A stretch of DNA of 6,983 nt from a candidate division KSB1 bacterium (GTDB lineage Bacteria; Zhuqueibacterota; JdFR-76; DREG01): the NCBI GenBank assembly GCA_022566355.1, contig JADFJB010000171.1, forward strand, positions 1 to 6,983. The letters run 5' to 3'. The stretch's first letter is position 1; each line of letters starts with the position of its first letter. The position numbers were made by a program, and so were the translations under genes. Below the pieces are notes generated by a model. The model was not told where the DNA came from and ran no database searches. It was given only the letters and a program-made list of their open reading frames with translations. Of this stretch, positions 2,666-4,062 are shown piece after piece.

Positions 2666-2686
2666 GGTAACTATTCAGCTATTGGC
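2666..2686 (+). repeat. Left terminal inverted repeat
   Basis: Starts GGTAACTATTCAGC and is the reverse complement of 2987-3007 at 19 of 21 positions; the two differences are at the 15th and 19th bases. The pairing does not extend inward or outward. Confidence 0.85.
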
Positions 2687-2709
2687 ATCCCGACGCTTCG
2701 GGATTGGCA
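2681..2709 (+). repeat. Hairpin (2687-2704) between direct repeats of ATTGGCA
   Basis: ATCCCGA (2687-2693), loop CGCT, TCGGGAT (2698-2704) form a perfect 7-bp stem. The 7-bp direct repeat ATTGGCA occurs at 2681-2687 and 2703-2709, overlapping the stem ends, so the palindrome looks like a small unit placed inside the left end. No T-run follows, so it is not a standard intrinsic terminator. Confidence 0.6.
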
Positions 2710-2712
2710 GAA

Positions 2713-2984
2713 AGGCTTCCTGTTGAAGAGAAATACGGGTTAAGAAGTCAAATCTGTCGTTCGGCTGTATCTATATTGTTGAGGGTTGTAACCGAAACAG
2801 TCAAATAGATTTCAAACGATTTTTAGAAATTGCTTTAGGTTCATCATTTGAATTGGAAACTCAAATTAATCATCATTGAAGAGATATCTTTAATCCCAAC
2901 AAAAGATAGTTAAGTGATTATGGATCAGTTAAATAGTGAACAAAAATGAGTAACAATCTCAGTAAGCTAATGGCCAACAGCTAA
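2713..2984 (+). pseudogene. Four-helix-bundle protein (S23 / 23S rRNA intervening-sequence family), decayed
   Basis: Reading across frames recovers the family in order. Frame one (2713-2775) gives RLPVEEKYGLRSQICRSAVSI. A deletion of about 10 nt, where the family has PSNIA, shifts the frame, and 2775-2864 gives IVEGCNRNSQIDFKRFLE followed by IALGSSFELETQ. An extra A at 2865 shifts it again, and 2866-2946 gives LIIIEEISLIPTKDS, a TAA at 2911, then VIMDQLNSEQK. A lost A near 2946 leads to the last part, MSNNLSKLMANS and a TAA at 2982-2984. Intact members are about 115-125 residues; here the first 35-40 residues are missing, as the sequence runs directly from the hairpin region into the middle of helix 1-2. 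Three frameshifts and a stop mean no protein can be made. Family members are small dimer- or pentamer-forming bundles, encoded in 23S rRNA intervening sequences and related to the Avd accessory protein of diversity-generating retroelements. I identified the family from motif memory, not a search. Confidence 0.88.
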
Positions 2985-2995
2985 AAGCTAATGGC
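2966..2995 (+). repeat. Direct repeat of GCTAATGGC at the right end of the element
   Basis: GCTAATGGC occurs at 2966-2974 and 2987-2995, 21 nt apart, with AGCTAA also at 2979-2984 between them. The first copy encodes the last residues of the pseudogene (LMAN) and the second begins the right inverted repeat, so the gene end and the element end share sequence. Confidence 0.6.
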
Positions 2996-3007
2996 TGAAT
3001 AGTTACC
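2987..3007 (-). repeat. Right terminal inverted repeat
   Basis: Ends ...CTGAATAGTTACC and pairs with 2666-2686 at 19 of 21 positions. It begins 2 nt after the pseudogene's stop codon and lies 26 nt before the hemH start. Confidence 0.85.
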
Positions 3008-3012
3008 TATAC
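3008..3012. repeat. Possible target-site duplication, right copy (TATAC)
   Basis: TATAC abuts the right inverted repeat and matches 2660-2664. With the base before it, CTATAC is shared on both sides, though that C is also the last base of the right inverted repeat. Confidence 0.45.
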
Positions 3013-3033
3013 GGTTAAATCAAGAATAGTAAA

Positions 3034-4062
3034 ATGAATAATCGAGGAATTCTCTTAGTCAATTTAGGGTCACCGGACTCGACATCGGTTAAGGATGTCC
3101 GCAAATACTTACATCAATTTCTAATGGATAAACACGTGATCGATACGCCGTATCTTGTTCGAAAAATGATTGTTGGTGCTTTTATTCTTCCTTTCAGACC
3201 AAGGCGATCCGCTGAAGCTTATCGTAAAATTTGGTGGGAAAATGGTTCTCCGCTGATTGTAAATAGTCAAAAAGTTCATCGACTTCTGCAAGAAAAACTG
3301 GATGAGCCAGTTGAACTAGCCATGCGTTATGGCAATCCCTCGATTTTGCAAGGGATGCATAACTTATTGAAAAATAATCCAAAACTAGCAGAAATTTTCC
3401 TGATCCCTCTTTATCCTCATTATGCCATGGCCACAGTGGAGTCTGTTTTGGTGGAAGTAAAAAAAACCATCACTAAACTCAATTTAAAAATCGATCTTAA
3501 CGTTCAACCTCTTTATTATGACAATCCAGACTACATTCAAGCGCTTGCGGCGAGTGCAAAAGCATATTTGAACCGGGAATTTGACCATCTACTCCTCAGT
3601 TATCATGGACTCCCGGAGCGACATCTCAAAAAATCAGATCCAACTGGCCAGCATTGTTTGATCAAAGAGAACTGTTGTGAAATTTCTTCCATTGCTCATA
3701 ACACCTGTTACCGACACCAGGTTTTCAGAACAGCAGATCTTTTGACGAAGGAATTGAATATTCCACGGAACAAGTATTCCATTTCTTTCCAATCGCGCTT
3801 GGGAAAAGATCCATGGCTGAAACCATTTACCGATGAGGAATTACGGCTTCTTCCTGCAAAAGGGGTGAAAAAGTTGTTAGTGATTTGCCCCGCCTTTGTT
3901 TCAGACTGTCTGGAGACCCTGGAGGAAATAGAGATCGCAGGAAAAAAATTATTCCTGGAGGCCGGAGGAAAGGAGTTTCAAATGATCCCTTGCATGAACG
4001 ATCATCCATTGTGGATTGATACCTTGCAAAAGTGGTGTTCGGAACCGGTAGAATTATTATAG
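3034..4062 (+). CDS. hemH: Protoporphyrin ferrochelatase with internal four-cysteine segment
   Basis: HemH inserts ferrous iron into protoporphyrin IX, the last step of protoheme synthesis. The 342-residue protein opens with the family start GILLVNLGSPD (5-15). The ferrochelatase signature LLLSYHGLPERH is at 186-197 with the catalytic H191, and DCLETLEEI is at 291-299 with E294, which matches the catalytic glutamate of the human enzyme. FQSRLGKDPWLKP (252-264) is also typical. Between the signature and FQSR lies a segment absent from E. coli HemH, with cysteines C208, C214, C215 and C225 within 18 residues. This fits the class typified by Myxococcus xanthus, in which four cysteines of an internal segment of about 20 residues bind a [2Fe-2S] cluster. 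The start at 3034 fits family alignments but has no Shine-Dalgarno sequence. The element at 2666-3007 sits just upstream and may alter its expression relative to hemE and hemN. Confidence 0.97.
   Translation: MNNRGILLVNLGSPDSTSVKDVRKYLHQFLMDKHVIDTPYLVRKMIVGAFILPFRPRRSAEAYRKIWWENGSPLIVNSQKVHRLLQEKLDEPVELAMRYGNPSILQGMHNLLKNNPKLAEIFLIPLYPHYAMATVESVLVEVKKTITKLNLKIDLNVQPLYYDNPDYIQALAASAKAYLNREFDHLLLSYHGLPERHLKKSDPTGQHCLIKENCCEISSIAHNTCYRHQVFRTADLLTKELNIPRNKYSISFQSRLGKDPWLKPFTDEELRLLPAKGVKKLLVICPAFVSDCLETLEEIEIAGKKLFLEAGGKEFQMIPCMNDHPLWIDTLQKWCSEPVELL

Follow-up and report, generated by a model that had tools for sequence, protein, structure and literature searches.

The window, that is, the whole stretch of 6,983 nucleotides analyzed here, comes from a candidate division KSB1 bacterium and contains a hem operon with hemE, hemN, hemH, hemG/Y, and hemL, all on the plus strand (gene names were judged from the sequences). 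The stop codon of hemN lies at positions 2632 to 2634 and hemH starts at position 3034, with a gap of 399 nt between them. The hem genes are the only long genes in the window, and no transposase or reverse transcriptase was found there, in agreement with the first-pass annotation, which had reported the lack of a transposase in the inverted-repeat unit. In 12 relatives, the closest of them from the same family, a search with hemH (3034 to 4062) gave no match at an E value of 1e-20; possible explanations are a lineage-specific gain of the complete heme operon and its loss in the relatives. The contig end (6876 to 6983) is occupied by a second dispersed repeat, which runs to ATTAAACCTCCCCTACCCCCTCCTTAAACAAGGAGGGGAAATTCCTCCCCT and shows 96% identity over 108 bp to a stretch inside an element of the same genome (G000:C73, L159/L160) with the GTAACTATTCAG ends described below.

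The hemN-hemH gap contains two inverted-repeat arms at 2666 to 2686 and 2987 to 3007, which lie 300 nt apart and are complementary at 19 of 21 positions, confirming the 21-bp ends recognized in the first-pass annotation. When the 399-nt gap was shuffled with its dinucleotides preserved, 1 of 2000 shuffles equalled their score if separated arms (at least 100 nt apart) were required, and 33 of 1000 did so if local hairpins were counted as well. The unit itself is real, but its borders had to be corrected to 2667 and 3006, giving 340 bp instead of the 342 bp first proposed. The 12-bp terminal inverted repeats are GTAACTATTCAG at 2667 to 2678 on the plus strand, a 12-mer found identically at ISGst1 (L502, one end exact) and at many MITEs, and CTGAATAGTTAC at 2995 to 3006, which reads GTAACTATTCAG on the minus strand. 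Outside them lie the left and right target duplications, CTATACTG (2659 to 2666) and CTATACGG (3007 to 3014), which match at 7 of 8 positions. The duplication suspected earlier is therefore real, but TATAC is only a part of the 8 bp.

Between the terminal repeats, a remnant of a left heptamer array (GCTATTG GC, 2678 to 2686, plus strand) is followed by a small leader palindrome (CCCGACGCTTCGGG, 2689 to 2702), a decayed S23 or four-helix-bundle gene (2704 to 2864, plus strand), and a right heptamer array (GCTAATG GCCAACA GCTAAAA GCTAATG GCTGAAT, 2966 to 3000, plus strand). The left remnant was recognized by comparison with the copies L053 and L063, in which the array is longer (GCTATTG GCATTTG GCTATTA GCTATTG), the palindrome by comparison with L063, and the right array from its sequence, from the relative L507, and from the 7-bp periodicity of S23 flanks. 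In fuller copies, the right array codes for the C-terminal KLKANS and the stop codon. The layout of an array-bounded S23 gene is present in the window, with the right array kept and the left one, which is longer in L053, L063, and L507, reduced to a remnant.

In a tblastn search, an S23 protein matched positions 2704 to 2775 in frame 1 and 2775 to 2864 in frame 3, with 83 to 87% identity and an E value of 1e-19; the listing for PF05635 gives 2775 to 2870. The N-terminal part of the gene is gone, a deletion at GATTGG(CAG) having brought the leader next to the S23 frame near codon 23, and both leader and N-terminal part are kept in L063. The gene has also suffered a frameshift and, at the SIPSNIAEG motif, has lost a short stretch. 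The cargo had been taken for a decayed four-helix-bundle gene, and this two-frame match upholds that assignment. Relatives match PF05635 and TIGR02436, and a window-type relative (L093) matches the solved structure 2GSC at 2e-22. The fullest relative, L507 from KSB1 bacterium 4484_188, measures 448 bp, runs from GTAACTGCTAAG to CTGAATAGTTAC, is flanked by the duplication GTGTGTCT/GTGTGGCT, and contains an S23 frame with one stop codon that matches PF05635 at 2e-32. The ends, the 8-bp duplication, the genomic copies, and the alignment with L507 point to the 340-bp unit as a non-autonomous IS66-type element and a deletion derivative of an S23 element of about 450 bp.

At the nucleotide level, the own genome (G000, 4.6 Mb in 213 contigs) gave 42 matches, the strong ones at about 20 places, where both ends and interior recur; the best copies show 91%, 90%, 86%, and 78% identity over most of the length. 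Together with the 8-bp duplication, this recurrence bears out the earlier view of an inserted, dispersed unit. Read singly, the copies have common ends, differing flanks, and differing internal deletions. At different sites, five of them (L055, L056, L058, L060, and L062) show one and the same internal structure together with a foreign left module, an argument for a deleted form having spread as such. Perfect duplications were found at L005/L054 (TAAAAATT) and L011/L060 (GAATCTAT). In the chimeric copies with a different left module, it is the outermost ends that the duplication flanks (8 of 8 positions at L060/L011; by eye at L056), so the outer 12 bp appear to be the recognized part. The first-pass annotation had considered a recurrence of the ends around intact copies of the gene. 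The ends do recur, but the copies detected with them in the own genome are decayed, and the copy nearest to intact is L507, from the other KSB1 genome, with its one stop codon. A right-hand module, TGGCAGAGATTCGTAAAAGCGACGAACC..AAACTTCAAGTTTCTTGAAAGTTAC, is common to L051, L052, and L160, is attached to S23-type as well as GxxExxY-like elements, and again terminates in GTTAC (or ATTAC). At the end of contig C166 in the own genome (L065), a right-end-like inverted pair surrounds an apparent IS remnant (GTCCCGTCCTGAAAAAAGTTAACAG .. AACCTATTTCAGGACAAGACAC).

The exact 12-mer GTAACTATTCAG occurs 17 times in the own genome (once for the reversed control), 369 times in the same-family genome G002 (control 0), and 93, 82, and 24 times in G057, G032, and G019, respectively. 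Many of the pairs in G002 delimit MITEs of about 90 to 430 bp whose interiors vary and which are flanked by perfect duplications of 8 bp, e.g., AAATTTTT, ACAGTTCT, CTTTTCCG, and CAAATAAT. The flanking 8-mers differed by at most one mismatch in 34 of 50 elements bounded in this way, which were taken from the own genome and its relatives, compared to none in offset controls.

GTAA ends and 8-bp target duplications are the marks of the IS66 family, and this family was suspected on that account. Two pattern scans of viral contigs gave mainly single matches, as chance would predict for a 14-mer given the size of the collection, and also L391, an element of 1613 bp with ends GTAACTATTCACCC/GTAACTATTCAGCC, a duplication ATTAAATG (8/8), and one transposase of 490 amino acids matching PF03050 at 4e-60. 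The annotated ISGst1 on the Geobacillus plasmid pGS18 (L502) likewise measures 1613 bp, with ends GTAACTATTCAGCC/GTAACTATTCACCC and duplication AAAAGAAC (8/8), and GTAACTATTCAG is identical to one end of ISGst1 and of L391. Within the same phylum, G053 carries an IS66 element (L500) of 1525 bp with ends GTAACTGTTCAGCTATAG/GTAACTATTCAGCTATGC and duplication ATTTTTTG (8/8); own-genome copies such as L054 begin with GTAACTGTTCAGCTAT, 16 bp identical to this element. IS66 elements with ends of the same kind were also found in G057 and G048, and PF03050 is present in G053, G057, G048, G032, and G028. Two observations count against the IS66 assignment, namely, that the own assembly has no match to PF03050 and that the duplication of the window element matches at only 7 of 8 positions. 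PF03050 was likewise found neither in G019 or G058 nor in the assembly of G002, in spite of the very high MITE load of the latter with its 369 exact ends; the source in these genomes may accordingly have been lost, be unassembled, or be a different one. The doubt about IS66 that arose from the own genome and G002 was dropped after L391, ISGst1, and L500.

The ends are not specific to one S23 gene, as the same ends also enclose unrelated cargo. Besides the window-type S23 gene, GTAACTATTCAG-type ends enclose at least two further cargos in the own genome. One is a different S23 subfamily (L159, and also L101 in G013), and the flanks of L159 share AAAAAGAG. Another is a short reading frame, MNEYIPSN..LTAKEIVDAAYNVHKNLGP, whose sequence faintly resembles the start of GxxExxY proteins; its 39-amino-acid remnant scored an E value of 0.14 against PF13366, below the cut-off, so that a GxxExxY-like identity is only suggested.

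The first-pass annotation had conditionally proposed a family of self-contained four-helix-bundle elements. In such a family, as understood here, the four-helix-bundle protein itself would move units with these ends. The S23 gene is indeed the sole gene inside, the array sequence tracks the protein, and cassettes without IS66 ends show occupied and empty sites. However, the same IS66-family ends with 8-bp duplications are found on S23-free MITEs with other cargo and on true, transposase-bearing IS66 elements, and copies missing most of the gene are dispersed as well. We consider such a self-contained family very improbable and no longer maintain it. The annotation also spoke of an IVS-type unit, which would have strayed from 23S rRNA and be cut out of the transcript as a hairpin by RNase III. 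The S23 (IVP) intervening sequences of Coxiella and Leptospira belong to the same protein family and have stem-forming terminal inverted repeats, the Coxiella IVS likewise with an S23 frame (PMC4990558), and the full window element folds as RNA into a long terminal stem (z = -6), like an rRNA IVS. Against this stand its site outside rRNA, between the protein genes hemN and hemH, and its transposon borders, i.e., IS66 ends with an 8-bp target duplication; moreover, no rRNA family was detected in the window or at nine tested S23 loci. The IVS-type identity was given up, as this origin appears less probable again.

Another candidate mobilizer comes from G002, where a DruA (DUF4338)-Tn5-type IS4 transposase lies inside a pair of GTAACTATTCAG ends (L195 3229 to 5714; G002:C7:24728-27213). 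In its favor stands this position between both ends, in a genome where 369 of them occur. However, a perfect inverted repeat of its own (16 bp, CTTAACATGTCCCTCA) lies inside the pair, the outer ends lack a target duplication, and co-occurrence is poor, in that the transposase is absent from G032, G057, and G019 and its relative in G042 is without these ends. It was rejected as the autonomous partner, a role we judge more doubtful still, and has the appearance of a nested insertion. Hardly credible at all are a dispersed palindrome of the REP/RAYT type and an inverted repeat that arose by chance. Four Y1 transposase genes are present in the own genome, but no GTAACTATTCAG-type end occurs in their neighborhoods. 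To our knowledge, 8-bp duplications are not a feature of RAYT, which was rejected on this ground together with the IS66 ends; chance is excluded by the recurrence in the genome.

We regard it as highly likely that the window unit is a non-autonomous, MITE-like element of the IS66 family with a passenger gene, inserted by a transposase acting in trans. Its anatomy can be read directly, and mobilization in trans, which we infer, completes a well-supported reading. With IS66 of the ISBst12/ISGst1 type (PF03050) the element shares the GTAACTATTCAG inverted repeat and the 8-bp duplication, whereas it has no transposase and its interior is a decayed S23 gene. Like MITEs and passenger-carrying IS derivatives, it is short and transposase-free, has IS ends, and exists in many dispersed, internally deleted copies; unlike them, it carries the relic of a protein gene with inverted heptamer arrays of its own, and the same ends are used by at least two S23 subfamilies and by the third cargo with its weak GxxExxY-like match. 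At first, the S23 gene would have been enclosed by inverted 7-bp repeat arrays, and its capture between IS66 ends would have followed. An IS66 (ISBst12-type) transposase supplied in trans would bind the GTAACTATTCAG ends and insert the unit into the hemN-hemH gap with a stagger of 8 bp; the captured gene would have spread before it decayed through deletion and frameshift. The means of spread, previously called unexplained, is very probably such a transposase, judging from ends and 8-bp duplications that are common to transposase-bearing IS and MITEs with other cargo. The element at the hemN-hemH site most likely has no present function.

Inverted arrays of about 7 bp flank most S23 genes examined, in many phyla. 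We examined the flanks of 78 S23 genes, all of which PF05635 had identified in the own genome and its relatives, and both flanks were dominated by tandem arrays with a period of 7 (also 6, 8, 9, and 14). For about 18 of 75 flanks on the upstream side and 24 of 77 on the downstream side, 7 was the strongest lag, compared to 1 of 70 distant controls. With a score of 12 or more required, the upstream array matched the reverse complement of the downstream one for 65% of 74 genes, as opposed to 2.4% of mismatched pairs. A second set of 80 S23 genes, mostly from Bacteroidota, gave 70.5% matching arrays against 4% for mismatched pairs and 1.5% for far flanks. In 44 of 75 cases, no more than 6 nt separated the start of the left array from the stop codon that ends a co-directional upstream gene, with 22.7 expected under uniform placement. 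Array sequence tracks the S23 protein (Mantel r of 0.25, 0 of 2000 permutations, with within-genome pairs excluded and wider relatedness left uncontrolled): the unit GCTGGAT goes with the EMYEEG subfamily in five genomes, and GCTATTG/GCTGTTG-like units accompany proteins of the window type, both in other families and in Bacteroidota. The subfamily starting with (R)QLNVWQKAH had no flanking arrays in the first set (L039, L041, L043, L046, L118, L120, L121, L125, and L127) and may be domesticated.

On cyanobacterial plasmids, S23 genes lie between inverted heptamers such as TAGGGAG and GGGAACA. For one such gene in Trichormus variabilis, plasmids 98% identical in the flanks provide a clean empty site, the empty form reading ..AAAAAGTAATTAACAAATAAATATG.. 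and the occupied form ..AAAAAGTAAT[cassette ending GTAAT]TAACAAATAAATATG.. The cassette is somewhat longer than 400 bp; its insertion point is the stop codon TAA, and GTAAT may be a 5-bp repeat. Since a less closely related plasmid (92%) carries a decayed cassette in this position, both directions, gain or precise loss, are conceivable. Presence and absence were also observed at three further sites with less exact borders; two copies in Calothrix brevissima represent one plasmid backbone and no independent insertions. Less settled is the view that the S23 gene travels without IS66 as an array-bounded cassette, or is at least gained and lost in this form.

S23 or four-helix-bundle proteins are common and their structures have been solved; we know of no function for them. 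The S23 inserts of rRNA are called selfish, and no means of their movement is known to us. The Avd proteins of diversity-generating retroelements are distantly related four-helix bundles (weak NCBIfam match), but the window has no reverse transcriptase. Tandem 7-bp units near stop codons have been described as heptameric intergenic repeats in Xanthomonas, often as inverted pairs, and in Nostoc (PMC4692102), and as TAACTGA repeats in Beggiatoaceae (PMC4679880), whereas the arrays here bracket an S23 gene. In the open-access literature, we found no description of S23 genes packaged between inverted 7-base arrays in many bacteria: the terms four helix bundle and S23 are absent from both heptamer papers, and the part of PMC4990558 considered here makes no link between rRNA intervening sequences and heptamer arrays.

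The window element offers one concrete route for S23 genes, namely, capture between IS66 ends. Tentatively, and short of calling it probable, we propose that S23 genes outside rRNA form a widespread, undescribed class of elements with one gene between element-specific 7-bp inverted arrays, which would insert just behind the stop codons of operons and whose protein would recognize its own array, as DNA or RNA, for spread; the window element would be such a cassette later captured by IS66 ends. A one-gene cassette with inverted heptamer arrays that is present or absent in near-identical plasmids opens both what the protein does and where bacterial heptamer repeats come from to direct tests. If true, the array-cassette class would join two unexplained literatures, that of the rRNA intervening sequences and that of the abundant intergenic heptamer repeats.
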